NCBI GenBank assembly: GCA_026390165.1
Contig: JAPLGM010000004.1
Coordinates: 186,001 to 250,000, forward strand
Length of the DNA stretch: 64,000 nt
From: Campylobacterales bacterium
GTDB lineage: Bacteria; Campylobacterota; Campylobacteria; Campylobacterales; Sulfurimonadaceae
Direction of reading: 5' to 3'
Part shown: positions 1,985 to 21,863 of the stretch, piece by piece
Numbering within the stretch: the first letter of the stretch is position 1
How the letters are laid out: each line of letters opens with the position of its first letter
Notes under the pieces: model-generated
What the model saw: only the letters and a program-made list of their open reading frames with translations
Database searches by the model: none
What the model was told of the DNA's origin: nothing
Translations under genes and position numbers: made by a program

Positions 1985-3088
1985 TTGGCATTAACATTAA
2001 ACTGGATTAAAAAATACCGTCTTTTTAGTGCTACAGTTGTAGCACCGACATTGATTGCATCCATCTATTATGGAATGATTGCCTCTGATATTTATATTAG
2101 TGAATCACAGTTTGTCGTTCGTGCACCGGATAAACCGACGGTTTCAGGTCTGGGAGCGATGTTGCAAAGCACAGGACTAAGCAGTGCGCATGATGATGTT
2201 TATACGGTGCGTGATTATATTCTCTCTCGTGATGCCCTAACTTCATTGGATCAAAATCTCAGCTATCATAAGCTTTATGGTGATTCAAAATCAGATATAT
2301 TTAGCCGTTTCAATGGTTTTGGACTCGATGACAGTTTTGAAGCATTGTATAAATATTATCAAAAATATATCGGAATATCGATTGATTCTCAATCCTCCAT
2401 TTTGACCTTAAGTGTACAGGCTTTTGATGCCAATGAAGCCAAAAAAATCAATGAGTATCTATTGTCGATCAGTGAACAACTGGTTAATCGCCTCAATGAA
2501 CGCGGTCGTACGGATATGATCGGATTTGCGGAGGATGAAGTAGCGCGTGCGATGGTGCGTGCGAAAACAGCGTCTATGGCCGTTTCGACATACCGTGATG
2601 CCAAATCAGTTTTTGATCCGGAAAAACAGTCAGCACTTCAGCTCCAACTGGTATCAAAAATTCAAGATGAATTGATCGCAACACGTGCTCAGCTCTCCCA
2701 GATGATCAGCCTCTCTCCTGAAAATCCACAAGTGGAATTGTTGCAAAACAAAATCGCAAACTTGACATCTCAAATTGCATCTGAAACAGCTAAAGTTACA
2801 GGAAGCAATAGTTCTTTGGCACAAAAATCATCCAAATATGAACAGCTAATTCTTGAGCGTGATTTTGCAGGTAAACAGCTTGCAGCAGCTCTTGCATCGC
2901 TGGAGAGTGCACGAAATGAAGCATTACGTCAGCACCTCTATTTAGAGCGTATTAGTCAGGCAAATACACCGGATATTGCACTTGAACCGCGACGCATTAG
3001 AAGTATTTTAACGGTATTTATACTTGGTTTGATTGTTTGGGGAATTTTATCGATGCTGTTAGCAGGTATTCGTGAGCATAATGATTAA
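1985..3088 (+). CDS. kpsE: Capsule export inner-membrane protein, KpsE/CtrB/BexC family
   Basis: Polysaccharide co-polymerase-type protein that spans the periplasm and couples the KpsMT transporter to the outer-membrane channel. A transmembrane helix lies near residues 14-32 and a second at about 340-362, with a long mostly helical periplasmic region between them containing coiled-coil stretches (roughly 170-330). A proline/arginine motif (LEPRRIRS) precedes the last helix, as in the family. Length 367 is typical (about 370-385). The start used is TTG at 1985, three bases after manC ends; no better start precedes the first membrane helix. Its end overlaps kpsM. Family assignment is firm; which outer-membrane partner it meets is inferred to be the lipoprotein at 17226. 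Confidence 0.88.
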   Translation: MALTLNWIKKYRLFSATVVAPTLIASIYYGMIASDIYISESQFVVRAPDKPTVSGLGAMLQSTGLSSAHDDVYTVRDYILSRDALTSLDQNLSYHKLYGDSKSDIFSRFNGFGLDDSFEALYKYYQKYIGISIDSQSSILTLSVQAFDANEAKKINEYLLSISEQLVNRLNERGRTDMIGFAEDEVARAMVRAKTASMAVSTYRDAKSVFDPEKQSALQLQLVSKIQDELIATRAQLSQMISLSPENPQVELLQNKIANLTSQIASETAKVTGSNSSLAQKSSKYEQLILERDFAGKQLAAALASLESARNEALRQHLYLERISQANTPDIALEPRRIRSILTVFILGLIVWGILSMLLAGIREHND

Positions 3089-3872
3089 ACGAGCCTCTTT
3101 GGGCCGATCATTCCGTATACAATTACGTGTGATTGGTGCACTTTTGATGCGCGAGATTATCACCCGCTATGGGCGTCACAATATTGGATTTTTGTGGCTT
3201 TTTGCAGAGCCGATGATGTTTACACTTGGGGTAACAGCTCTGTGGATGATGGCAGATGCAACGCATGGTTCAAATCTCCCGATTACTGCATTTGCGTTGA
3301 CAGGATACAGTTCTGTTTTGGTGTGGCGTAATACTGTTGGTCGTACGACGGCTGCGATCATGCCGAATCTAAGTCTTATGTATCATCGCAATGTTCGGGT
3401 TATCGATATTTTTGCTTCTAGGATTATATTGGAGATTGTTGGTGCAGGGGCATCGTTTGTTATTTTAACCCTATTTTTTCTCGGAATCGAATGGATTATT
3501 CCTCCTCACGATATTTTAAAAGTCATTTTTGGTTGGGCAATGTTAGCGTGGTTTGGTGCTGGATTGGCACTGTTTCTTGGAGCATTAAGTGAACGATCAG
3601 AGGTGATTGAAAAGCTTTGGCATCCAATCTCTTACTTACTTTTTCCGCTCTCAGGTGCTGCTTTTATGGTGGAATGGTTGCCGCAGCAGGCGCAAAATGT
3701 GGTTTTGTATCTGCCTATGGTTCACGGTGTTGAGATTTTGCGGGAGGGCTTTTTTGGCAGCGCGGTACATGCTCATTATGATATGGGATATATGGCAGTT
3801 TGTAATCTTTGTTTGACACTTTTTGGTTTTGCGATGGAACGAGATATTAGTCGTCGTGTGGAACCTGAATGA
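3072..3872 (+). CDS. kpsM: Capsule polysaccharide ABC transporter permease, KpsM
   Basis: ABC-2 type membrane subunit that moves the finished lipid-linked polysaccharide across the inner membrane. The protein has about six hydrophobic segments and the N-terminal [11 protein letters not shown] motif typical of KpsM/CtrC/BexB. The length is 266 residues against about 258-265 in the family. A GTG at 3072 or an ATG at 3081 could start it; both overlap the end of kpsE, so translation is probably coupled. The next gene, the ATPase, starts inside its stop codon (ATGA). With kpsE, kpsT, kpsC and kpsS in the same run, it defines an ABC-transporter-dependent (group 2/3-like) capsule rather than a Wzy-dependent one. 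Confidence 0.93.
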
Positions 3873-4525
3873 TAAAATTAGAAAATATTGTCAAAAAGTA
3901 TCATACTCGTGCAGGGTCACGTACTGTTCTCGATCATATTAATTTAGAGGTTAAGCGTGGTGAGAAGGTTGGTATTTTAGGACGTAACGGTGCTGGAAAA
4001 TCGACGCTAATCCGTTTGATGAGTGGTGCAGAGCTTCCGACATCAGGGCATATTTATCGTGGTATGCGCCTTTCATGGCCGCTTGCCTTTGGAGGAGCCT
4101 TTCAGGGAAGCTTGACAGGTATTGATAATTTGAAATTTATTTGCCGCGTATATGGTGCGGATTATCGGGATAAGATTGCATTTGTTGAAGAATTTTCAGA
4201 ACTCGGGCAGTATCTACGCGAACCGATCAAAAAATATTCAGCAGGAATGCGGGCACGACTTGCCTTTGCTATATCAATGTCGATTGAATTTGATTGTTTT
4301 CTTATTGATGAGATTGTAGCTGTTGGGGATAGCCGATTTCATGAAAAATGCAATATTGAGCTTTTTGAAAAACGACGAGATAGATCTATGATTTTGGTTT
4401 CTCATGATCCAGGATATATTCGAGAACATTGTGATCATGCAGCTGTCCTTATTGCTGGGAAACTTTATAGTTTTGATCATATTGATGAAGCATTTGAATT
4501 TTATGACAAGAGTATTGCCTTATGA
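3869..4525 (+). CDS. kpsT: Capsule polysaccharide ABC transporter ATPase, KpsT
   Basis: ATP-binding subunit that powers KpsM. It shows Walker [10 protein letters not shown] at residues 38-46, a KKYSAGM signature region, Walker [12 protein letters not shown] and the switch histidine in LVSHD. The 218-residue length equals the short KpsT/CtrD type. There is no C-terminal carbohydrate-binding extension of the kind found in the O9a Wzt transporter, so export should not depend on recognition of a terminal modification by the ATPase. The start overlaps the kpsM stop (ATGA) and its own stop overlaps the next start in the same way. Confidence 0.94.
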
Positions 4526-5784
4526 TTTCTAAACTAAAATTAAGTACACGTTCTCTTTCCTCGCAGCGCATGACTCTTTTAAAGCAGATGAGAAAAAATC
4601 GTCCACAGATTTCAATTCAATCCAAGCAGCTTCTAGTCGATGTGTCAGCTATTATCCAAGAGGATGCGCATACAGGAATTCAGCGTGTAGTACGGGCGTT
4701 ATTGGTACAATTATTTGCTAATCCACCCGAGGGTTATCACGTCCTACCTGTCTTTTGTACTCGCGAACATGGTTATCGTTATGCTGATAGCGTATTTGTC
4801 CATAAATTTACTTCGTATGATAATAATAATAAAATGCCCATAGCTGATGTTGTTGTAAATAATAAAGATATTTTTTTTGGTCTTGATCTGGTAGCACGTT
4901 TTTTACCCTTGCATAAAAAGCAACTTTTGAACTGGAAACTACAAGGAGTGAAACTTCATATCCTTGTGTACGACATGTTACCCCATTTGCATCCCGAGTG
5001 GTTCACTTCACGATCTGTAAAAAATTTTCATCGGTGGCTTCGTACCATTTCTGTCTATAGCGATCAACTTATTTGCATATCAAATTCAGTGAAAAATGAG
5101 TTAAGAGAGTGGCTTTGTAATCAAAACTTTAGTATTCATACCCCTCGAATCGTTACCATACCCCTTGGCTGCGAGATAGCATCCAGTATGCCAAGCTCAG
5201 GGATGGATGATCAAATAGCAGGCATACTGGAGAGCTTAAAAAAACAAAAGTTTATTCTTATGGTCGGGACGATTGAACCGCGCAAGGGATATGATGATGC
5301 ACTAAAAGCTATGAAAACTTTTTGGGACACTGGAGAAGATATTGCATTGGTTATTGTCGGAAAGACAGGGTGGAAAACAGTTAAATTACAAGAGAGACTC
5401 CTTTCTCATCCACAGCAAGGTTTTAAGCTGTTTTGGCTAAAAAATGTAAGTGATCAGGTACTCCAAAAATTGTATGAAATGGCAAATGTGGTATTAGTAA
5501 CATCGTATGGTGAAGGATTTGGATTACCAATTGTAGAAGCGATCTATTATGCTAAACCATTGCTAGTGAGAGATATTCCTGTGTTTCGGGAAGTCGTGTA
5601 TGGTTATAAAAATATTGAGTATTTTAGTGACGACAATATGCTTGTAAGTAAATTGAAAAGTCAGCTTCAAAATCCTCAAAAAAATTTAGAGAGTGAATTT
5701 CATGGGTCAACATGGTATGAGAGTGTTTTACGGTTAAATGCTTTATTCCTGACAAATCAACAAAAAAGTAGTTTTAATGGGTAG
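4522..5784 (+). CDS. GT4-family glycosyltransferase
   Basis: Retaining GT-B glycosyltransferase of 420 residues, cytoplasmic, presumably building the capsule repeat from a GDP-sugar. The C-terminal donor site is visible as [10 protein letters not shown] and [10 protein letters not shown], followed by DIPVFREV. The N-terminal acceptor domain holds LLVDVS and [11 protein letters not shown]. The same pattern recurs in the second module of the 8709 gene and, more distantly, in the 18398 gene, so these are paralogues. Sugar and linkage specificity cannot be read from sequence; mannose or D-rhamnose is suggested by the nucleotide-sugar genes nearby. The start overlaps the kpsT stop. Confidence 0.85.
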
Positions 5785-6949
5785 CATTAACTCTTATGCT
5801 CAGAATTTTGAAGATGTGATGCTTTGGCGGGCATTAGGTCATATTCCGAATGGTTTTTATATTGATGTTGGCGCATGGTCACCTGATACTGATTCTGTTA
5901 CTCGATTATTTTATGAGAAAGGTTGGAGAGGTATTAATATTGAACCAAATCCTAAGTTTCACAAACAATATTTACATAAAAGAGCTGAAGATATTAATCT
6001 TAATGTAGCTGTTAGTGATGAAATAGGAACAGCTGAAATATATTTTGTATCGAATCCTGGTCTTTCATCTTTGGATAAATCAATCGCTGAGGGGCATGTT
6101 GCTTCAGGTTGGACAGCTAAACCATCACTAGTAAATGTTACAACACTTTCAAAAATTTGTGAAACTTTTTCTGAGAATCAGGCAATACACTTTTTAAAAG
6201 TTGATGTTGAGGGATTTGAGAAAAATGTTTTTCTTGGTAATGATTGGAAAAAATATCGTCCATGGATTATAGTAGCTGAAGCAACGCTTCCAATGACTCA
6301 GGTTGAAAATTATGAAGAGTGGGAGTATATTCTTTTAGATGCAAATTATCTTTTTGTTTATGCCGACGGTTTGAACCGTTTTTATCTCGCAGAAGAGCAC
6401 AAAGAGCTTTTAAAATTTTTTAAATATCCGCCGAATGTATTTGACAATTTTTCCATTAAAAAAGATGTTCAAAATACTCTAATTTATAATTCTAATACTG
6501 TTTATTGTGAGTTGAATAATGGTTTTCATATCATAGAACCATGGGGTGTTTGGTGTTCAGGTAAATTGGCATCGATGTCCATTGGAATTCGAGAAAATCA
6601 AAACTATCCCATACTGATTAATTTAAAAATAGCATTGAAAATATTTGCACCATTGTTGGAATATTCTCCTCTAATAAAAATTTCGCAACAAGAGTCCATT
6701 CTAGCGTATGTTTTATTCAGATCTACAACGCAAGAATTGAATGAATTGTCTTTAATTATCCATTGCGAGAATGAAGAGTCTGATTTAATATTTGAAATAA
6801 CGAATGAAGGTTCACCGATGGATTTTGGAAGTGTAGATAATCGTATTTTGAGTTTCGGAATGACTATCTTGTCAGCAGAAATTGTTAAAGATGATGAAAT
6901 GGGTAATCATCTACAAAAAAATCCACATATTATAGGGATTTTATCATGA
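5777..6949 (+). CDS. FkbM-family methyltransferase with C-terminal extension
   Basis: SAM-dependent methyltransferase of the FkbM family, likely O-methylating a sugar of the capsule. The N-terminal SYAQNFEDVML, the SAM loop FYIDVGAWSPD, the INIEPNP segment and LKVDVEGFE are characteristic. The catalytic domain takes up about residues 1-215; residues ~220-390 form an extra region without a motif I recognise, possibly a beta-rich binding domain. It overlaps the previous gene by 8 bases and the next by 4 (ATGA), so it is tightly coupled to the coiled-coil protein. Terminal methylation stops chain growth in the E. coli O8 system; a similar capping role here is a hypothesis. Confidence 0.82.
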   Translation: MGSINSYAQNFEDVMLWRALGHIPNGFYIDVGAWSPDTDSVTRLFYEKGWRGINIEPNPKFHKQYLHKRAEDINLNVAVSDEIGTAEIYFVSNPGLSSLDKSIAEGHVASGWTAKPSLVNVTTLSKICETFSENQAIHFLKVDVEGFEKNVFLGNDWKKYRPWIIVAEATLPMTQVENYEEWEYILLDANYLFVYADGLNRFYLAEEHKELLKFFKYPPNVFDNFSIKKDVQNTLIYNSNTVYCELNNGFHIIEPWGVWCSGKLASMSIGIRENQNYPILINLKIALKIFAPLLEYSPLIKISQQESILAYVLFRSTTQELNELSLIIHCENEESDLIFEITNEGSPMDFGSVDNRILSFGMTILSAEIVKDDEMGNHLQKNPHIIGILS

Positions 6950-8709
6950 CAAGCAATGATATTAGTTTAGAAATATTGCAACAACTCAATCAAGAATTTG
7001 CAATAAAAGAGGCTGATTTTTATTCTACAATCAAAAATCTCCATCAGCATGAAGATCAGCTAAACGCCGAAATAGAGAGCTTGAAGGTAGAATTAATTGG
7101 TAGAAATGAGAATACTCAAACGAAAATAGCAGAAATTACTCATTTACAATCTTTAATTGCAGAACTCGAACAAGAAAAAGTTGCATTTCAGAATACGTAT
7201 AATGAGCAATTAAACGTTTATCGTGAAAGTATGAATGAGTATAAAGAAGAATTAGAGGCTCAAATTAATACGATTGGTACCGAACTCAAAACACAGACCG
7301 AACGCTCAACAGAGTATTTGACTTCATTGGGACAAAGAGAGAAAGAGTTTGCACGTGAACTGGCAAAACTTAGAGAAAGTGGTGATCTACAACGTCAGAG
7401 TATCGAGACGCAATACAAAGAGGTGATTGCCGAACTTTCGAATGAGTATAAAACCCGTGAATCAAATTTGGCTTCTCAAATAGAGAATATTCGTACCGAA
7501 CTCAAAAGACAAACCGAACGCTCAACAGAGTATTTGACTGCATTGGGACAAAGAGAGAAAGAGTTTGCAAGTGAACTTGTAAAACTCATAGAAAGTGGCG
7601 ATCTACAACGTCAGAGTATCGAGACTCAATACAAAGAGGTGATTGCCGAACTTTCGAATGAGTATAAAACCCGTGAATCAAATTTGGCTTCTCAAATAGA
7701 GAATATTCGTACCGAACTCAAAACACAAACTGAACGCTCAACAGAGTATTTGACTGCATTGGGACAGAGAGAAAAAGAGTTTGCACGTGAATTAAAACAG
7801 ATAGTGGATGAAAAACATACTACAGAGTTAAAAAACAGTGATTTGTCTCATCTATTAACGGCAGCGCAACTATTAGAGTCACAATTAAAGGGTGAATTGG
7901 CTATGCGTCAGCAGATACTATCTGATTTATCCGTAGAACTTAAAAAACTACAAGGGAGCTTCACGTGGCGGATAACAGCTCCGCTACGTGCCGTGGCTAA
8001 ACTGTTTATATCCTCCCCTTCTGATTCCGAAGAAGTATCAATATCTTCAGTGAGTACTTCCTCTATAGAGAGTAATTTAGCAATAGCAGATTCATCTTTG
8101 AATACTACGATGATCGAAGAATCTAAAATAACCCAGTCTGAGCACCCTATAATCCATATAAAGGAGACATTTATGTCATCATCCCCAATCGTAGCTGCGA
8201 CATCACTCGATGAATTACTCGCTTATCATGACGCCGATTTTATTCACTGTGCGTATATTACTTTGCTCGGACGCGTGCCTGATCCTGAGGGGAACCGTTA
8301 TTATCTTGGACGTATACGTGCTGGTCGTGCAAAGATTGAAATTATTGATCAGATCGCATCATCTTCAGAAGCAAAAGAACTAAGTGTTAGTATCTTAGGA
8401 TTGCAACAAGCACTGGGACGATACCGGTGGGAAAAAATACCTATTATTGGATCGGTGATACGAAGCATAACGCGTCATGATGAAATTTCTTGTCAGATAC
8501 GTCAAATAGAAAATAATATTTATCTTCTTGGGAAAGATACGTGTAAACGTTTTGATAGAATAGAAAAAAATATTGCAATAGTTGCTAGTGAAAGTATTAA
8601 GATAGATAATGAACCTGATGAACTAAACCATTTATCATCCCATGCTCGAGAAATTTATTTTCAGCTAAAAGCGGCTGCATTAAAACAAGAATTTGGGGGT
8701 ACAAAGTAA
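6946..8709 (+). CDS. Coiled-coil protein with tandem repeats and DUF4214 domain; candidate chain-length ruler
   Basis: The 587-residue protein has no signal peptide. Residues ~10-335 are predicted by eye as an almost unbroken charged coiled coil, including two and a half copies of a 72-residue unit. About residues 337-350 carry the motif SFTWRITAPLRAV, a variant of a short motif often seen at the end of coiled coils in polysaccharide-assembly proteins. Residues ~418-470 (AYITLLGRVPDPEGNRYY) match DUF4214, a domain common in glycan-related proteins. It lies between a methyltransferase and a multi-module glycosyltransferase with 1-4-base overlaps. Together these suggest a cytoplasmic scaffold or molecular ruler that sets chain length, as the WbdD coiled coil does. 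The architecture is seen; the function is inferred. Confidence 0.7.
   Translation: MTSNDISLEILQQLNQEFAIKEADFYSTIKNLHQHEDQLNAEIESLKVELIGRNENTQTKIAEITHLQSLIAELEQEKVAFQNTYNEQLNVYRESMNEYKEELEAQINTIGTELKTQTERSTEYLTSLGQREKEFARELAKLRESGDLQRQSIETQYKEVIAELSNEYKTRESNLASQIENIRTELKRQTERSTEYLTALGQREKEFASELVKLIESGDLQRQSIETQYKEVIAELSNEYKTRESNLASQIENIRTELKTQTERSTEYLTALGQREKEFARELKQIVDEKHTTELKNSDLSHLLTAAQLLESQLKGELAMRQQILSDLSVELKKLQGSFTWRITAPLRAVAKLFISSPSDSEEVSISSVSTSSIESNLAIADSSLNTTMIEESKITQSEHPIIHIKETFMSSSPIVAATSLDELLAYHDADFIHCAYITLLGRVPDPEGNRYYLGRIRAGRAKIEIIDQIASSSEAKELSVSILGLQQALGRYRWEKIPIIGSVIRSITRHDEISCQIRQIENNIYLLGKDTCKRFDRIEKNIAIVASESIKIDNEPDELNHLSSHAREIYFQLKAAALKQEFGGTK
7279..7797 (+). repeat. 216-bp tandem repeat, about 2.4 copies, within a coding sequence
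   Basis: Copies begin at 7279, 7495 and 7711, each at the same ACCGAACTC, giving a 216-base period (72 codons). Copies 1 and 2 differ at about ten positions and are identical over their last ~85 bases; the third is partial and ends near 7797. A diverged half copy seems to lie just before 7279. The period keeps the reading frame, so gain or loss of a unit would lengthen or shorten the coiled coil without disrupting the gene. Confidence 0.9.
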
Positions 8710-11700
8710 TGCGTATTGTTATTGATTTACAAGCAGCGCAGGGTAGAAGTCGTTTCCGTGGTATTGGCCGGTATAGTATTTCACTTGCAAAAGCTATGGT
8801 ACGTAACCGTGGCGATCATGAGATAATTATTGCTCTCAATGGTCTTCTCCCAGAAAGCATCGAATTTATACGTGCAGAATTTGACGGATTATTGCCTCAG
8901 AGTAATATTGTAATATGGCAGGCTATTGCTCCTCTTTATCCTGCTGGTGATAATCCAGCCCATAGTTTGAACAAGCAAGTATCAGAATTACTCAGGAATA
9001 ATTTTTTAGCTAGTTTACAACCAGATATTGTACATATAACTAATCTTATGGATGGTTGGGATGAAGATGTCGTAACGAGTGTGAATGAAGAAAATAAAAG
9101 TTTTTTAACAGCGGTTACATTCTATGACGTGATACCATTAATGAATCCTCAGACATATTTAGTAGATCCTGCTGTATCACGTTATTATCACGAAAAAATA
9201 AATAATTTAAAGCGTGCAGATATTTTATTAGCCATTTCAAAATCATCATCTGAAGAAGCGATTGATTATCTTGAAGTTAACCATTTAAAAGTATTTAATA
9301 TTATGTCGGCAACTGAAGATTATTTTCAGCCTCTCTATCTCTCTAATACAACTGAGCAATTGATTCATCAAAAATTTGGATTAATACATCCTTTCATAAT
9401 GTATTCTGGTGCGACGGATGAACGTAAAAACCATTTACGGTTGATTAAAGCCTTTTCTTTATTACCCATAGATGTGAGAAAAAGTCATCAGCTTATCTTA
9501 GTTGGGCATTTACCGAATGAACATAGAGAAAAGTTTGAAATGTATATTAAACTATGTGGACTTCAAAAAAGTGATGTTCTAATTACTGGTCGTGTTAGTG
9601 ATGATGAAATGGTACAGCTGTACAATTTATGCAAACTATTTGTTTTTCCTTCATGGCATGAGGGGTTTGGTCTTCCTGCACTAGAAGCGATGGCTTGCGG
9701 TGCAGCAGTAATAGGCTCAAATACATCGAGTATTCCTGAAGTAATTGGGCGAGTGGATGCACTGTTTGATCCTTTTGACGAACAGTCTATTATGCTAAAA
9801 ATTTTAGAAGTACTGAATAATGATAAATTACGAGCCGATCTTGCTTCTCATGGTCTACGCCAAGCAAGAAAATTTTCATGGGATGAAAGTGCTAGACGAG
9901 CATTAAAAGCTTTCGAGGATTCTTATGCGGTACATAAGCCAACAATTAGAGAAGAAAGTTCAAAGCAAATTATCACGTCAAAGCTTATTGAAAAAATTAT
10001 AAAACTTGAGAATAAATTAATTAATGAAATTGATTTGAAAAAACTAGCTGGAGTGATTGCGCATAATCATCCTAAAAACAGTGAAAAGCAGTTATTCATT
10101 GATGTGTCTGAACTTGCCCATCGAGATAGTAAAACAGGTATTCAACGTGTTGTTCGTAGTATTGTGGCAGAATTAATAGCTAATCCTCCGGCTGGATATA
10201 GAGTTGAACCTGTTTATGTTATTGAACATATAACAAACTATTATTGTTACGCACGAAAATTTAAACAGAATTTTTCTGGTGATTATACGGAGTTAGCTGA
10301 AGATACACCTATAGAGCTAGCCAATGGTGATATTTTTATAGGATTAGATTTACAGCATCACGTTGTTATGCAGCAAGAACCTTTTTACAGATACATGAAA
10401 CAAATGGGCGTCCAAGTACATTTTGTAATATATGATTTATTACCGGTTCTATTGCCAGATGTATTTCCAAAAGGTACAGCTGATATACATGGTAAATGGT
10501 TGAGCGTATTGGCGCAGGCCGATGGAGTCTTATGTATTTCTCGAGCGGTTGCTGATGAGATGCTTGAATGGTTGAATGTATTTGGTCCTGAGCGAGTAAG
10601 ACCATTAAATATAGGATGGTTTCATCTGGGAGCAGATGTTTCTGGCTCTGTACCGAGTAAAGGGCTTCCTGATAACGCCAAAAGTGTTTTTATAGCATTA
10701 TCTAAGCGACCAACTTTTGTAATGGTAGGTACAATTGAACCACGTAAAGGGCAGATGCAGACTTTATTGGCGTGTGAACAGCTTTGGGCTCAAGGGATAG
10801 ATATTAATTTGGTCATCGTTGGTAAAAATGGATGGAATGTTGATCTCTTACTTGAAATGCTTCGCAACCATTCAGAACTGGGTAAACGATTGTTTTGGTT
10901 AGCAGGCGTTAGTGATGAGTACCTTGAAAAGGTGTATGCTTCTTCTTCATGTTTAATAGGTGCTTCTGAGGGTGAGGGATTTGGATTACCACTCATTGAA
11001 GCTGCTCAATATAAAATTCCAATGATACTTCGGGATATTCCGGTTTTTAGAGAAGTAGCAGGTGAATTTGCTTATTACTTTAAAAACGATAAGAATCCAG
11101 CAGTTTTAGCAACTAGTATCAAAGAATGGATGTTATTGAATGAAAAAAACAATCAGCCTAAATCTGACTTGATGCCTTGGATAACTTGGAAACAAAGTAC
11201 AGAAGATTTATTGAATATAGTGTTGAAGAATCAATGGTATAGCAATTGGAAGCCAGATAATATATATCGTTTTTGGGGCGGTGACAACCGTTTAGGCACC
11301 CAAGTTGGAAAACGTACCGGTAAAAATATTGAATCGATAGGTGAAGCAGGTTATCTAATTTTCGGTCCATATATCACTATGCCAGTAGGCAACTACAATA
11401 TCACTATCAAGGGTACTTCTCATGTCATTAGTAGTGCGCGAATGGATGTTGCGGTTAATGGAGGTTCTGTAATCCTTGGAGAATCTCCTTTGGGTGAAGC
11501 AGATAGTGATGGTTGTATGATATCGTTACCAATCCTACTGAATAAGGAATGCAATGATCTTGAAGTCAGGATATGGGTCAGTGCGGAGTCTGATATAAAG
11601 ATTAGTGAAATCGAAATTATTCCAGAGTCTGCTGTAGAAATTAAAGATATTACGGAAGATATCGGAAACATGGATAATACAGACATGGCAGTTGAGAGTG

Positions 11701-11789
11701 CAGAAGTTATTGCCCTTGAATCTGAAATTAGCCCGATATCCACAAACGCAAATAAAACTAAACAATCAAAACGTAATAAAAGACGGTAA
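8709..11789 (+). CDS. Double-module GT4 glycosyltransferase with C-terminal beta-rich domain
   Basis: The 1026-residue cytoplasmic protein has two complete GT-B modules. Module 1 (about 1-420) starts MRIVIDLQAAQG.SRFRGIGRY and has its donor motif EGFGLPALEA near residue 318. Module 2 (about 455-850) starts [22 protein letters not shown] and has VGTIEPRKG and EGFGLPLIEA near 755; it is closely similar to the 4522 gene product. Residues ~860-970 look like a beta-sandwich, perhaps carbohydrate binding, then a Lys/Arg-rich tail. The layout resembles WbdA-type polymerases that make two linkages alternately. Its start overlaps the coiled-coil gene stop (TAATG), supporting complex formation. Actual sugars and linkages are unknown. 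Confidence 0.85.
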   Translation: MRIVIDLQAAQGRSRFRGIGRYSISLAKAMVRNRGDHEIIIALNGLLPESIEFIRAEFDGLLPQSNIVIWQAIAPLYPAGDNPAHSLNKQVSELLRNNFLASLQPDIVHITNLMDGWDEDVVTSVNEENKSFLTAVTFYDVIPLMNPQTYLVDPAVSRYYHEKINNLKRADILLAISKSSSEEAIDYLEVNHLKVFNIMSATEDYFQPLYLSNTTEQLIHQKFGLIHPFIMYSGATDERKNHLRLIKAFSLLPIDVRKSHQLILVGHLPNEHREKFEMYIKLCGLQKSDVLITGRVSDDEMVQLYNLCKLFVFPSWHEGFGLPALEAMACGAAVIGSNTSSIPEVIGRVDALFDPFDEQSIMLKILEVLNNDKLRADLASHGLRQARKFSWDESARRALKAFEDSYAVHKPTIREESSKQIITSKLIEKIIKLENKLINEIDLKKLAGVIAHNHPKNSEKQLFIDVSELAHRDSKTGIQRVVRSIVAELIANPPAGYRVEPVYVIEHITNYYCYARKFKQNFSGDYTELAEDTPIELANGDIFIGLDLQHHVVMQQEPFYRYMKQMGVQVHFVIYDLLPVLLPDVFPKGTADIHGKWLSVLAQADGVLCISRAVADEMLEWLNVFGPERVRPLNIGWFHLGADVSGSVPSKGLPDNAKSVFIALSKRPTFVMVGTIEPRKGQMQTLLACEQLWAQGIDINLVIVGKNGWNVDLLLEMLRNHSELGKRLFWLAGVSDEYLEKVYASSSCLIGASEGEGFGLPLIEAAQYKIPMILRDIPVFREVAGEFAYYFKNDKNPAVLATSIKEWMLLNEKNNQPKSDLMPWITWKQSTEDLLNIVLKNQWYSNWKPDNIYRFWGGDNRLGTQVGKRTGKNIESIGEAGYLIFGPYITMPVGNYNITIKGTSHVISSARMDVAVNGGSVILGESPLGEADSDGCMISLPILLNKECNDLEVRIWVSAESDIKISEIEIIPESAVEIKDITEDIGNMDNTDMAVESAEVIALESEISPISTNANKTKQSKRNKRR

Positions 11790-12599: not shown

Positions 12600-14525
<1,926 letters not shown>

Positions 14526-14526
<1 letters not shown>

Positions 14527-17149: not shown

Positions 17150-17225
17150 AAGGGTATTATTCTCAATATCCTGAGTGGTAAAAGTTAGTTAGAATATCGA
17201 AGTTAATTTGAATGAAAGAAGAATT

Positions 17226-18395
17226 ATGAATTTGAAAGAGATTTCCCTACTCTCTGGAGTGGTTAGTGTTTTATTATTAACAGGATGTGCAAGTACGACT
17301 TCCTATCTCTCATCAAGTGGACCTAGCACGTCAAAGGTGAATGAGGTGAATGAAACCAACAGTGCCGTCCAGATTGTCGATGTCGATGATAAAGTAGCGC
17401 GCCGTTTATTAAATAGCAACAAGCAAGCACAATTTTCTGAAGCATTTACGGAAAAAATAAGTTCAAATTATACGGTTGGGGCAGGGGATGCACTGGAAGT
17501 ATCAATTTGGGAAGCACCTCCTGCAACTCTTTTTGGTTCAGGACTTTCGGATATTAAATCAGGTGGAGCTACAAGTAAAGTAAGTACATTACCTGAGCAG
17601 ATTATTCAAAGCAATGGCATGGTGAATATCCCTTTTGCAGGACAAGTGAGTGCAGCTGGAAAAACACTGCATGAAATCGAAAGTGAAATCATAAAGCGTC
17701 TTCATGGTAAGGCGAATCAGCCTCAAGTTTTGGTGCGCCTTACACGTAATACTTCAGCTAATGTTACTATAGTTGGGGAAGTGGGAGCGAGTGTCCGTAT
17801 GCCGCTAAGTCCAAGAGGGGAAAAGCTTCTTGATGCCCTTGCAGCTTCGGGTGGAGTACGGCAACCCGTCAATAAAATGACGATGCAAGTGACGCGTGGG
17901 GATGTGGTTCGTTCTATGCCCCTTGAACGTGTTATCTTAGATCCAAAACAAAACATTGTTTTACAACCGGGGGATGTTATTACGGCAATGTATCAACCTC
18001 TTAGTTTCACAGTACTGGGTGCTACGGGTAAAAATGAAGAGCAAAATTTTGAGGCACAAGGAATATCATTAGCTCAGGCATTAGCGCGTGCCGGAGGATT
18101 ACAAGATGCTCGTGCAGATGCTCAGGGAGTATTTATTTTTCGTTTTGAAGATCCAGACGCTGTCGAATGGAAGTCAAAACCTAATATGACGCCGGATGGT
18201 AAAGTCCCTGTCATTTATCGAGTGGATTTGAAAAATCCAGCTACTTTTTTCGTTGCGCAGGGTTTTCCGATACGCAACAAAGATGTTTTGTATGTGTCCA
18301 ATGCGCCAGCAGCAGAGATGCAAAAGTTTCTTAATATCTTGACCTCCGCTATCTTTACGGTTACGGCACCTATGAGTTCAGGATTGATTAAATAG
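17226..18395 (+). CDS. Outer-membrane polysaccharide export lipoprotein (CtrA/BexD/Wza type)
   Basis: Forms the outer-membrane export channel for the capsule. The ATG at 17226 gives a clean lipoprotein signal with lipobox LLTGC (Cys21); an in-frame TTG at 17208 would add six residues before it and is less likely. A polysaccharide-export domain begins at YTVGAGDALEVSIWE, followed by two SLBB-like domains and a C-terminal stretch of about 20 residues that could be the membrane-spanning helix. At 389 residues it matches CtrA/BexD/Wza rather than the longer KpsD of E. coli. It lies 76 bases after manB, the largest gap within the capsule run, so an internal promoter is possible, but none is clear. 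Confidence 0.88.
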   Translation: MNLKEISLLSGVVSVLLLTGCASTTSYLSSSGPSTSKVNEVNETNSAVQIVDVDDKVARRLLNSNKQAQFSEAFTEKISSNYTVGAGDALEVSIWEAPPATLFGSGLSDIKSGGATSKVSTLPEQIIQSNGMVNIPFAGQVSAAGKTLHEIESEIIKRLHGKANQPQVLVRLTRNTSANVTIVGEVGASVRMPLSPRGEKLLDALAASGGVRQPVNKMTMQVTRGDVVRSMPLERVILDPKQNIVLQPGDVITAMYQPLSFTVLGATGKNEEQNFEAQGISLAQALARAGGLQDARADAQGVFIFRFEDPDAVEWKSKPNMTPDGKVPVIYRVDLKNPATFFVAQGFPIRNKDVLYVSNAPAAEMQKFLNILTSAIFTVTAPMSSGLIK

Positions 18396-18397
18396 CG

Positions 18398-19546
18398 ATG
18401 ATTATGGATGTAACACGCCTCGTAGGCAGATTCTTTAAAAGAAAGCTACCTACTGGGATTGATAGGGTATGTCTAGCTTACGTGGAGCGTTATGGGGACA
18501 AAAGCTGTGCTTTGATACGCATAGGAGACAAATATCATATTGTAGGTAAATCTATTTCACAAGAAATTTTCACTCTGCTTTTATGCCCTGAAAATGCTAA
18601 ACACACTCATATGATTTGGTTGCTACTACGTTCATTTTTTACATTAAACTCTTCCCCTACAAGAGGAAAAATAATGTTTAATATTGGACATATGGGGTTA
18701 GATAGAGAAGAGTATCCACATGTTATTAAGAAAATGGAGGTTAAACCTATTTTTATGGTGCATGATCTTATCCCGATTCACTATCCAGAATATGGGCGTG
18801 TAGGTGAGAAAGAACGGCATATAAGAAGGATAAATTGTGTATTGGATACGGCAACAGCCATTGTCACAAATTCTCAAGCAACACTGAATGAGTTAAGAGT
18901 ATATTCTGATGCTCAGAATAAGCCAACCCCATACGCCATTGCAGCTCTTTTAGGTACCCTTGTTTTAACGAAGGAACAATGCAATGCACCTCTTAAGGTT
19001 CCATATTTTGTAATATTAGGGACAATTGAAGGACGTAAAAATCATTTATTATTATTGAATATTTGGCGAAATTTGGTAGATACTCTCGGTGATGAAACTC
19101 CAATATTGGTCATTATTGGACAGCGTGGTTGGGAGTGTGAAAATGTTATTGATCTTCTAGATAGATGTGACAAATTAAAAAATTATGTCATTGAAATTCC
19201 TCGATGTTCGGATGAGATGTTATCTGCCTATCTACACCACACGTGTGCGCTTCTTTTCCCTTCTTTTGTTGAGGGTTATGGGATGCCATTAGCAGAAGCA
19301 CTAAGTATTGGAGTCCCTGTCCTTGCGAGTGATTTGGGAGTCTTTCGAGAGATTGCTGGAGATATACCCGAGTATATTGATTCGTTAGATGGAAAAAGAT
19401 GGAAAGAGATGATCATTGAATACGCACGTTCAAATTCATCTAAACGTCAGGATCAAATAGAACGGATCAAAAAACTTGAATTGCCAACGTGGGAGTATCA
19501 TTTTAATCAAGTGGATAATTTGATTACTTTAATGGTTAGTAAATGA
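18398..19546 (+). CDS. GT4-family glycosyltransferase
   Basis: The 382-residue GT-B protein starts MIMDVTRLVG and LPTGIDRVCLAYV, a distant version of the TGIQRVVR acceptor-domain motif seen in the 4522 and 8709 products. Donor-domain motifs are LGTIEGRKNH, EGYGMPLAEAL and FREIAGD. Family membership is clear, specificity is not. It starts two bases after the export lipoprotein gene and overlaps kpsC (ATGA), so it sits among the export and linker genes. One possibility is that it adds the first repeat-unit sugar to the Kdo linker, but nothing in the sequence proves this. Confidence 0.82.
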   Translation: MIMDVTRLVGRFFKRKLPTGIDRVCLAYVERYGDKSCALIRIGDKYHIVGKSISQEIFTLLLCPENAKHTHMIWLLLRSFFTLNSSPTRGKIMFNIGHMGLDREEYPHVIKKMEVKPIFMVHDLIPIHYPEYGRVGEKERHIRRINCVLDTATAIVTNSQATLNELRVYSDAQNKPTPYAIAALLGTLVLTKEQCNAPLKVPYFVILGTIEGRKNHLLLLNIWRNLVDTLGDETPILVIIGQRGWECENVIDLLDRCDKLKNYVIEIPRCSDEMLSAYLHHTCALLFPSFVEGYGMPLAEALSIGVPVLASDLGVFREIAGDIPEYIDSLDGKRWKEMIIEYARSNSSKRQDQIERIKKLELPTWEYHFNQVDNLITLMVSK

Positions 19547-20604
19547 ATTATTTTTTCGGATTTTCCTACTGGAAACACCCTCTTATTGAACCTTTTTTTG
19601 ATAAGCAATCGGTTTTTATTAATCCATTTTTTAAACGTGAATACTTGAAAAAAGCACTTCAGAAAGGGATGAATAATAAAAGTTCAATTTATATTTGGGG
19701 TAAAAAAGAGTTTCCAGAAGTTGAACAGTATGCCCATGATCACGCTATTGCCCTCTTTCGTGTTGAAGATGGATTTATCCGATCGGTAGGGTTAGGTTCC
19801 GACCTGACACAACCATATTCTCTTGTTGTGGATTCGAGGGGGATCTATTTTGATCCAACGGCAGAAAGCGATTTGGAGCATATTCTCCAAAATCATCTTT
19901 TTTCGAAAGCTGAAATTGGACGTGCTAGAGATATTCGACATTATCTAATTGAAAAAAAGATCTCGAAATATAATCTTTATAGCAATGTAGAGTTGGCTTT
20001 ACCAAAAGATAAAAAAATTATTATTGTTCCAGGGCAAGTGGAAGATGATGCGTCAATTTTGTATGGGGCGAACGGGATGAGCAATTTGAAGCTGCTACAA
20101 CAAACGAGAATAAATCGTCCGGATGCGTATATCGTCTATAAACCACATCCTGATGTTCTCGTCGGTAATCGAGTAGGAGCTGTTATTGAAAGCGATGCGC
20201 TTAGTTATTGTGACCGCATTGTTACGGAAGTGGGTATTGACAGCGTCTTGGCTTGCGCTGATGAAGTTCACACGATGACCTCACTGGTAGGATTTGAGGC
20301 AATGATGCGAGGGATTAAAGTGGTTACCTACGGAGTACCGTTTTATGCAGGGTGGGGATTGAGTGAAGATTCCCATAGGTGTGAGCGACGGAGCCGAATA
20401 TTGAATATCGATGAACTTGTTGCTGGGGCGTATTTACTCTATCCTCGTTATATTCATCCTGAAACGAAAATGCAGTGTGAGATTGAAGAGGTAGTGAACG
20501 TATTTGAGCGAGAACGTAGCGTATACCGTAACTCGATTACACAAAAAGTTCGTAACTGGATGAGCCGAAAGTCACAGCAAATTTACCGTATAATACGAGA
20601 TTAA
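19543..20604 (+). CDS. kpsC: KpsC-like beta-Kdo transferase, single module
   Basis: Adds beta-linked Kdo residues to the glycolipid on which ABC-exported capsules are built. Motifs FGFSYWKHPL at the N-terminus, FRVEDGFIRSVGLG, VPGQVEDDAS and YKPHPDV are those of a KpsC catalytic module. Canonical KpsC is about 670 residues with two such modules; this protein is only 353, and the opening and the VEDDAS motif look most like the C-terminal module. The neighbouring sequence carries no remnant of the other module, so this is not a simple frameshift. Start and stop fit tightly with neighbours. Family firm; module identity is from memory. Confidence 0.8.
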   Translation: MNYFFGFSYWKHPLIEPFFDKQSVFINPFFKREYLKKALQKGMNNKSSIYIWGKKEFPEVEQYAHDHAIALFRVEDGFIRSVGLGSDLTQPYSLVVDSRGIYFDPTAESDLEHILQNHLFSKAEIGRARDIRHYLIEKKISKYNLYSNVELALPKDKKIIIVPGQVEDDASILYGANGMSNLKLLQQTRINRPDAYIVYKPHPDVLVGNRVGAVIESDALSYCDRIVTEVGIDSVLACADEVHTMTSLVGFEAMMRGIKVVTYGVPFYAGWGLSEDSHRCERRSRILNIDELVAGAYLLYPRYIHPETKMQCEIEEVVNVFERERSVYRNSITQKVRNWMSRKSQQIYRIIRD

Positions 20605-20627: not shown

Positions 20628-21863
20628 ATGGTAAAAGAGGGGATAGAATCGTTTAAAGGGAAGCAGGTTCTTTTATTGCAAGGTGCTGTAGGTCCTTTTT
20701 TTAAACATCTGGCTCTTGATTTGCAACATGTTGGTGCAACTGTTCATAAAATAAATTTTAATGGAGGAGATTGGTTCTTTTCCTCCAAGGGCGCTGTAAA
20801 TTTCAGAGGTACATTTGAAGAGTGGCCTCAATTTTTTACATATTTTATTGAAAAAAATCAAATTGAAATGATTATGCTATTTGGTGATTGCCGTAAGTAT
20901 CATCGAATCGCACATGCTATAGCCGATAAAAAAGGGATAGATATTGGTGTGTTTGAGGAAGGATATATCCGTCCTGATTACATTACATTTGAAAGATTTG
21001 GAGTCAATGGACATTCTCAAATACCGCGTGATCCAATATTTTACCAATCTTTATTGGATGATGAGTTTACGGTAGTTGGAACGGTTCCTGTTGGACGTAC
21101 CTTTCGCTATGCGGCATGGTGGGCGACACTCTATTATTTTTACAGTGCCCTATTGTATCCACTGTTTCGACACTATTCGCACCACCGTCCGCTAAACCCT
21201 TTTGAGGGGCTCTATTGGATCCGCTCTGTATGGCGAAAACAGTGGTATCGATACAAAGAGTCTGGAATGCAAAATAATTTAATTACAACCTATACAAAAC
21301 AATATTTTTTGGTTCCCTTGCAAATATCAACGGATGCTCAGATCGTTGATCATTCTGATTTTGAATCCGTGGAACACTTTCTTGAAAAAGTGATTACTTC
21401 GTTTGCTGTGCATGCGCCAAAAGAGACGTGGCTCGTGATCAAGCATCACCCTTTGGATCGTGGTTATAACGATTATAGTGCCTTTATTCATAGATTGGCA
21501 CAGCATCATGATATTATGAAAAGAGTCCATTATATTCATGATCAACATCTTCCGACATTGTTGGAGCATGCACGGGGTGCTATTATGATTAATTCAACTG
21601 TTGGACTTTCAGCAATTCATCACAATACCCCTTTAAAAGTGTGTGGAACTGCTATTTATGATTTAGAAGGGTTGACCTATCAAGGTTCATTAAATCAGTT
21701 TTGGAATGAATCGGATAACTTTAAATGTGATCGTGAATTACATAAACGCTTTAATGGATACGTTATCAATTACAAACAAATCAATGGAAGTTTTTATCGT
21801 AAGCTGAAAAGTTCTGATTTAAAATGTGGTATTTTTTGGTCTTTATCCACGTCAAATCTATAA
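20628..21863 (+). CDS. kpsS: KpsS beta-Kdo transferase
   Basis: Transfers the first beta-Kdo to lyso-phosphatidylglycerol, starting the capsule anchor. The opening QVLLLQGAVGPFFKHLA, the FNGGDWF segment and IKHHPLDRG are characteristic of KpsS/LipB. The length, 411 residues, is normal (about 390-420). It begins 23 bases after kpsC with a weak purine-rich site and is the last gene of the capsule run. A 270-base gap before nuoA follows it. Genes for CMP-Kdo supply are not in the window; they would be shared with lipopolysaccharide synthesis. Confidence 0.9.
   Translation: MVKEGIESFKGKQVLLLQGAVGPFFKHLALDLQHVGATVHKINFNGGDWFFSSKGAVNFRGTFEEWPQFFTYFIEKNQIEMIMLFGDCRKYHRIAHAIADKKGIDIGVFEEGYIRPDYITFERFGVNGHSQIPRDPIFYQSLLDDEFTVVGTVPVGRTFRYAAWWATLYYFYSALLYPLFRHYSHHRPLNPFEGLYWIRSVWRKQWYRYKESGMQNNLITTYTKQYFLVPLQISTDAQIVDHSDFESVEHFLEKVITSFAVHAPKETWLVIKHHPLDRGYNDYSAFIHRLAQHHDIMKRVHYIHDQHLPTLLEHARGAIMINSTVGLSAIHHNTPLKVCGTAIYDLEGLTYQGSLNQFWNESDNFKCDRELHKRFNGYVINYKQINGSFYRKLKSSDLKCGIFWSLSTSNL

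Follow-up and report, generated by a model that had tools for sequence, protein, structure and literature searches.

Within a 64,000-nucleotide stretch of a Campylobacterales bacterium (Sulfurimonadaceae; assembly GCA_026390165.1, contig JAPLGM010000004.1, positions 186,001 to 250,000), hereafter the window, three consecutive forward-strand genes are predicted to encode the parts of a complex that could control the chain length of a capsular polysaccharide. The first gene (5777..6949) encodes a 390-amino-acid (aa) FkbM-family methyltransferase (PF05050), a putative chain-capping enzyme. The second (6946..8709) encodes a 587-aa putative coiled-coil ruler or docking protein, and the third (8709..11789) a 1026-aa polymerase candidate with two Glycos_transf_1 stretches (E 3.6e-56, Pfam) and a C-terminal region. 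This last protein resembles WbdA in that two glycosyltransferase (GT) modules, here of the GT4 type, occur in one protein. The FkbM and coil genes overlap by four bases (tcATGA), the coil and polymerase genes by one base (TAATG), and the start of the FkbM gene overlaps an upstream GT4 gene (4522..5784; Glycos_transf_1, E 1e-25) by eight bases. A preliminary description of this DNA had reported three genes overlapping by one to four bases, with an FkbM methyltransferase, an SFTWRITAPLR motif, a DUF4214 domain and a 1026-residue protein with two GT4 modules; the open reading frame (ORF) coordinates and junctions agree with this, and Pfam confirms the domains.

Most of the N-terminal half of the 587-aa protein is predicted to form a long helix (6952..8007, forward strand), modelled by AlphaFold2 from six sequences as residues 3-54, 61-289 and 297-354. 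The predicted local distance difference test score (pLDDT), averaged in blocks, falls from 85 to 53 up to residue 340, with residues 291-295 below 50. Long helices predicted over residues 3-343, together with the periodicity, indicate an extended coil of about 340 residues, so that the long coil of the preliminary description stands, at a somewhat greater length than the roughly 325 residues given there. Hydrophobicity has a periodicity value of 8.51 at 3.6 residues (1000 shuffles: 99th percentile 6.71, maximum 8.52), which supports an amphipathic, not strictly heptad, helix. As regards a membrane-associated amphipathic helix of the sort found in coiled-coil terminators, the hydrophobic moment is modest (0.36-0.38), and the helix is modelled to residue 354 with pLDDT below 50 from residue 344. 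Tandem Repeats Finder identified a 216-bp (72-aa) repeat in the coil (7273..7791, forward strand; 2.4 copies, 94% matches). Since the repeat comprises whole codons at 94% matching, part of the coil appears to be a recent duplication, and coil length has therefore probably changed without loss of frame.

The SFTWRITAPLR motif lies at the end of the coil (residues 338-348; 7957..7989), followed on the same strand by DUF4214 (residues 427-479; 8224..8382; Pfam E 1.6e-9) and a C-terminal tail, LSSHAREIYFQLK (8632..8670), which alignments show to be common to several fused terminators. Of 26 motif-bearing proteins in which 30-200 residues follow the motif, 9 have the tail pattern, as does 1 of 1366 control ORFs; it is thus enriched, though far from universal. 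In 199 genomes of the order of the window, other genes matched the coil protein only over a part, and plasmid searches yielded matches over at most about 40% of the query, which lay in the FkbM part and reached no further than the start of the coil. The matches to LmuB, JetC and ZorA that PADLOC gave for the coil protein look like coiled-coil similarity and were disregarded.

The Methyltransf_21/FkbM domain (E 1.1e-29) covers residues 30-192 of the 390-aa protein, and residues 9-224 form a mostly high-confidence AlphaFold2 model, built with 23 sequences. The best fold matches of this model in the PDB are methyltransferases, with low template modelling scores, and a sequence search of the PDB gave no match at E of 1 or below. 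The protein is not a methyltransferase-kinase related by sequence to WbdD. It carries an extra C-terminal region, which the preliminary description did not mention (about residues 226-390; 6452..6949, forward strand; DUF7024 at E 0.005, below the cut-off). Searches with this region returned one weak non-self match in 100 genomes, two non-self matches in 199 genomes with a two-row profile (one of them a row of that profile) and three weak matches among 2460 ORFs of 80 related loci. One weak relative is the C-terminus of a 495-aa protein. With few weak relatives and low pLDDT, a beta-sandwich or carbohydrate-binding fold is a guess.

The trio is embedded in a forward-strand locus of the Kps (group 2-like) kind, in the order ManC, KpsE, KpsM, KpsT, GT4, trio, an aldose-epimerase-like protein, Gmd, an Rmd-like reductase, GT4, phosphomannomutase, KpsD, GT, a KpsC module and KpsS. 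KpsE (1985..3088; BexC/CtrB/KpsE family, TIGR01010 E 9e-116), KpsM (3072..3872; ABC2_membrane, NF050053 E 4e-29) and KpsS (20628..21863; NF050054 E 3e-136) matched these TIGR and NF models below the curated cut-offs. The KpsM has a 62% identical match in Burkholderia sp. BCC0506. KpsT (3869..4525) has 218 aa with ABC_tran as its sole above-threshold domain and no Wzt-type C-terminal domain, in agreement with the preliminary description, in which it lacked the Wzt carbohydrate-binding domain. Further downstream are Gmd, a GDP-mannose 4,6-dehydratase (12606..13646; TIGR01472 above cut-off), an NAD-dependent reductase (13624..14526; GDP_Man_Dehyd E 5e-49), which we call Rmd-like from its position beside gmd, and a KpsD-type outer-membrane export protein (17208..18395; Poly_export, SLBB). 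KpsC is a single module of 353 aa (19543..20604; E 7e-68 to KpsC chain 6mgd). Compared with the 671-aa KpsC of a related locus, L153, the window genome matches only residues 350-669, the C-terminal half, and no match to the N-terminal KpsC module is listed for it. Given this single module, the linker of 3-deoxy-D-manno-oct-2-ulosonic acid (Kdo) may differ from the usual poly-Kdo.

A complete counterpart of the trio, in fused form, occurs at L153 (genome G494), a complete Kps locus with KpsT, GT4, KpsM, KpsE, KpsS, KpsC, KpsD, ManC and Gmd. Here an 890-aa protein combines FkbM, 388 residues to an SFAWRLTAPVR motif, DUF4214 (E 1.7e-8) and the tail. Its FkbM part is identical to that of the window at 107 of 249 positions, and the part from coil to tail at 151 of 487. 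The 1010-aa polymerase encoded directly after it shares 587 of 977 residues (60%) with that of the window, C-terminal region included. The KpsT proteins (217 aa in L153) are identical at 159 of 216 positions (74%) and the GT4 proteins beside them at 42%. A QRE-x-[ED]-F element recurs in the coil repeats of both loci, every 72 residues in the window and every 65 in L153. The main differences in the window are the encoding of FkbM and coil in two genes, the extra FkbM C-terminal region and the single-module KpsC.

Proteins in which FkbM, a coil and a DUF4214-like region are fused also occur in Kps loci of Burkholderia sp. BCC0506 (L124/L150) and two relatives (L151, L152). The FkbM-coil protein of L124 has 823 aa and ends in a DUF4214-like region; kpsS, kpsE, kpsM and kpsT are found in the same part of the contig. 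When the DUF4214-like part of L124 was searched in 398 genomes of its family, 20 matched, and wider stretches were examined for five of these. The class of G494 was sampled with 369 genomes, and in these the C-terminal part of the window's coil protein was matched at E of 1e-12 or below by G494 alone; with only partial matches in the 199 genomes of the window's order, the coil-DUF4214 type is rare in the genomes sampled. From the end of FkbM to an anchor (the motif in L153 and L154, LWEGYR in the others), the distance is 388 residues in L153 and L154, 391 in L124, 351 in L152 and 336 in L151, a variation that a tunable spacer would allow.

The pair L153 and L154 is informative about the C-terminal module. 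The two fused genes are identical at 1932 of 1947 bases (99.2%) through residue 649 and at 542 of 711 thereafter; the change point, at base 1947, falls between motif and DUF4214, at a distance of 22 residues from the motif. Their polymerases (1010 and 1399 aa) are 41-52% identical in the aligned parts, and Gmd, encoded after the polymerase, is again nearly invariant (340 identical residues of 343). This pattern suggests that polymerase and post-motif region were exchanged together. We also examined co-variation in 21 of the 80 related loci, those with a motif, 60-200 residues from motif to protein end and an adjoining GT of at least 600 aa. Conditioned on FkbM, the region after the motif correlated with the N-terminal 420 residues of the polymerase (partial r 0.32, p 0.011); given the post-motif region, FkbM did not (-0.03, p 0.586). 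The contrast was weaker for the last 420 polymerase residues (post-motif region 0.20, p 0.038; FkbM 0.13, p 0.088). The exchange and the correlation fit a polymerase-docking module like that of the WbdD C-terminus.

Searching 397 genomes of the phylum for the polymerase (E of 1e-60 or below) gave 13 matches including that of the window, and 11 of the 12 other loci were inspected, leaving out L038 on a 4 kb contig. Each of the 11 has a long ATP-binding cassette (ABC) ATPase of at least 400 aa, compared with the 218-aa KpsT of the window. A methyltransferase-coil protein carrying a motif of this kind is encoded directly before the polymerase in seven (L037, L040-L043, L045, L046), with forms such as SKSWKLTKPLR, SNSFKITKPLR and SKSWRITKPLR. 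When near variants and motifs inside the polymerase ORF itself are also counted, eight loci have the motif at or immediately upstream of the polymerase. L044 has a variant motif on the opposite strand, and in L047 and L048 the protein before the polymerase is without the motif. At L037, a Wzm/Wzt relative, FkbM, a 47-residue spacer, SKSWKLTKPLR and a tail resembling that of the window coil protein form a single 342-aa protein adjoining an 838-aa double GT4. Its FkbM is 64% identical to that of the window over 230 columns. At L039, the slot of the trio's FkbM is occupied by a WbdD-type methyltransferase-kinase (E 4e-101 to PDB WbdD chains) with a repetitive coil; the next ORF encodes further coil, a variant motif and the GTs. 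The coil of L039 (8919-13885) consists of repeats of about 35 aa, and the reading frame breaks inside the repeats between the two ORFs. A different arrangement occurs in three genomes of the window's order (L002, L003, L004). In the product of one gene, a DUF4214-like part precedes a helical part and a methyltransferase stands at the C-terminus, so that the order of the parts is reversed. This gene follows an ABC ATPase gene of 402 aa in L002 and 405 aa in L003; in L004 the ABC gene is on the opposite strand and cut by the end of the stretch.

We also scanned named genomes for the FkbM domain and considered the best 80 of at least 452 loci, each up to about 20 kb and several cut by contig ends; 10 of the 80 FkbM ORFs extend to the locus boundary. 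Coil-like runs of at least 50 residues, defined by a composition proxy, follow FkbM in 61 of 80 cases. The controls were 149 further annotated ORFs from these loci, of which 6 have such a run. The motif occurs in 39 of the 80 FkbM ORFs and in one of the 149 controls, and in 48 of all 2460 ORFs of the loci, where 0.2 would be expected after residue shuffling. A looser coil proxy (28 residues) was dropped as evidence, since it was found in 71 of 80 FkbM ORFs and also in 92 of 149 controls. Classes resting on that loose proxy comprise 30 FkbM-coil-motif fusions, 9 also fused to a GT and 4 with the motif in the next ORF. Kps genes, judged by similarity to those of the window, occur in one of the 80 loci, L124. 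Two loci have unusual architectures. L058 (587-3001) encodes two successive methyltransferases, FkbM and one of another family, with PLR-type motifs before one polymerase, as if two terminators shared it. L109 (2497-7800), from a Nitrosospira metagenome-assembled genome, has an all-in-one ORF of 1767 aa that unites FkbM and GT sequence with the motif and a coil-like segment of 244 residues.

We propose, with a probability of about 0.62, that the trio is a split terminator, ruler and polymerase complex of the WbdD/WbdA kind, used with a Kdo-type exporter. The preliminary description regarded the three proteins as separated WbdD/WbdA-type ruler parts, and the fused homologues at L153 and L037 and the WbdD-type enzyme at L039 support this family relation. 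It also suggested looking for the same trio near kpsMT elsewhere; the fused counterpart was found, at L153 among others, and the clean split was seen in one genome only. What would be new compared with WbdD/WbdA, as supported by the gene content, is a cap enzyme detached from the coil and the use of a Kps exporter. From these comparisons we infer capping, docking of the detached FkbM, the ruler function and the identity of the sugars. The double GT4 protein would build a chain probably containing mannose and D-rhamnose, and the C-terminal part of the 587-aa protein (coil end, motif, DUF4214 and tail) would hold the polymerase on the membrane side. With a helix rise of 1.5 Å per residue, the coil of about 340 helical residues would span about 50 nm if straight and could space the polymerase site from the capping enzyme. 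When the chain has become long enough for its growing end to reach FkbM, the enzyme would methylate that end and so stop elongation. As the cap enzyme and the coil are two proteins, FkbM would have to be held at the distal coil end by binding and not by a peptide bond; its extra C-terminal region may help to hold it there or may bind glycan. For export, KpsMT presumably requires a Kdo glycolipid at the other end of the chain, a route described in the available text of PMC11666461, and the cap would therefore control synthesis only. Such action on polymerization and not on export would fit the missing Wzt-type domain of KpsT.

Several observations weigh against this proposal. The structure models are of single chains, with capping and docking deduced, and in that of the coil protein pLDDT is under 50 from residue 344 onwards, a stretch that takes in the end of the motif and what follows, so that the last part of the helix is not secure. 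No kinase domain was detected in the Pfam scan of the trio, and the cap would therefore be methyl only. The fused relatives showed no counterpart of the extra C-terminal region of FkbM, and residues 225-390 are almost wholly below pLDDT 50. Among the 80 loci, 31 have FkbM with a coil-like segment by the looser proxy and no match to the motif pattern, and 6 have neither motif nor coil-like segment, one of them being cut by a contig end. Of the four loci whose motif falls in the following ORF, three (L055, L056, L116) seem to have their frame broken within repetitive coil sequence, which leaves one genome with a clean split; these breaks and that of L039 are possibly slippage-prone rulers or assembly errors. 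The fourth, L058, has a second methyltransferase and is no clean split. Furthermore, the L153/L154 exchange and the correlation could also stem from linkage of neighbouring DNA, the only control for kinship being the conditioning on FkbM.

The six loci with neither motif nor coil, and the detachment of FkbM with its extra region in the window, would suit an enzyme that methylates along the chain, with the coil protein merely a scaffold gathering glycosyltransferases at the membrane and length depending on how synthesis and KpsMT export balance each other. In its available text, PMC12220298 leaves length control of ABC-transporter-dependent capsules open and presumes synthesis and export together as its basis. 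We nevertheless consider such decoration unlikely, as the excess of long coil-like runs after FkbM over controls is hard to square with random methylation and a WbdD-type terminator can occupy the same slot (L039). It is more doubtful still that the split parted the cap enzyme from the coil in such a way that length is no longer measured and the genes are kept for methylation and scaffolding. Such decay might explain why the clean split occurs in one genome and why G494 alone among 369 genomes has a close match to the C-terminal part, but both genes are intact and joined by the ATGA overlap, all modules are kept, and the 72-aa repeat is in frame at 94%, with coil length probably changed without loss of frame. 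Polysaccharide loci often exchange genes, as the L153/L154 pair exemplifies, and coil and FkbM are separate in the window; their adjacency could in principle be an accident of cassette exchange between functionally unrelated proteins in a variable locus. We regard this as very improbable, given that several fused homologues keep this order of parts and that all three genes overlap.

A tentative generalization is that the chain length of some Kdo-linked, KpsMT-exported capsules may be set by a WbdD-like ruler, here a non-covalent one in which a separate FkbM docks on the free end of a coil of about 50 nm, its length changed by in-frame tandem duplication, with length control uncoupled from export. 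A terminator-ruler encoded within complete Kps loci, as a fusion in some genomes and by separate genes here, is a concrete candidate for capsule length control. The split form would naturally separate the cap enzyme from the spacer, making docking and spacing separable, and the L153/L154 pair represents a natural exchange of C-terminal module and polymerase.

The preliminary description knew of no split ruler combined with a Kps exporter, and none appeared among the titles and abstract beginnings listed in searches of open-licence papers. Within that literature no paper joined FkbM, coiled-coil, polysaccharide and glycosyltransferase, and neither the motif as text nor DUF4214 with glycosyltransferase was found. 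The nearest described systems are WbdD and WbdA of Escherichia coli O9a and Klebsiella pneumoniae O3, which, as far as the available text of PMC11231755 and PMC5082667 describes them, share with the window a terminating methyltransferase, a long coil and a membrane-side C-terminus that recruits a double-GT polymerase. The WbdD ruler measures about 200 Å, and insertions and truncations in it have an effect (PMC5082667, in the portion available); its C-terminus serves in polymerase docking (PMC11231755, likewise). WbdD is one protein with a kinase and works with Wzm/Wzt, whereas the window has an FkbM-type enzyme with no kinase found, cap and coil in two genes, DUF4214 and a Kps exporter. The K. 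pneumoniae O7 terminator ORF6, in the available part of PMC11231755, has an order like that of the window, with a methyltransferase, a carbohydrate-binding-module (CBM)-like fold, a coil and two GT modules. All of these are in one protein, however, with a kinase between methyltransferase and CBM-like fold and with GTs that the paper calls GT2 modules, and a CBM-like nature of the extra FkbM region in the window is a guess. The K. pneumoniae O12 WbbB and O4 ORF7 proteins, according to partial descriptions, are also coiled-coil terminators but add Kdo and are not methyltransferases. A terminating enzyme and a coil in one protein, typical of coiled-coil terminators, occur in the fused homologues, while the window encodes them in two genes. 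The FkbM-coil-DUF4214 proteins of L153, L154, L124, L151 and L152 have the parts found in the window, its exporter type within the examined stretches and similar neighbours; they differ in the fusion of FkbM and coil, and those of L124, L151 and L152 also in being without the SxSWRxTxPLR motif and the double GT4.

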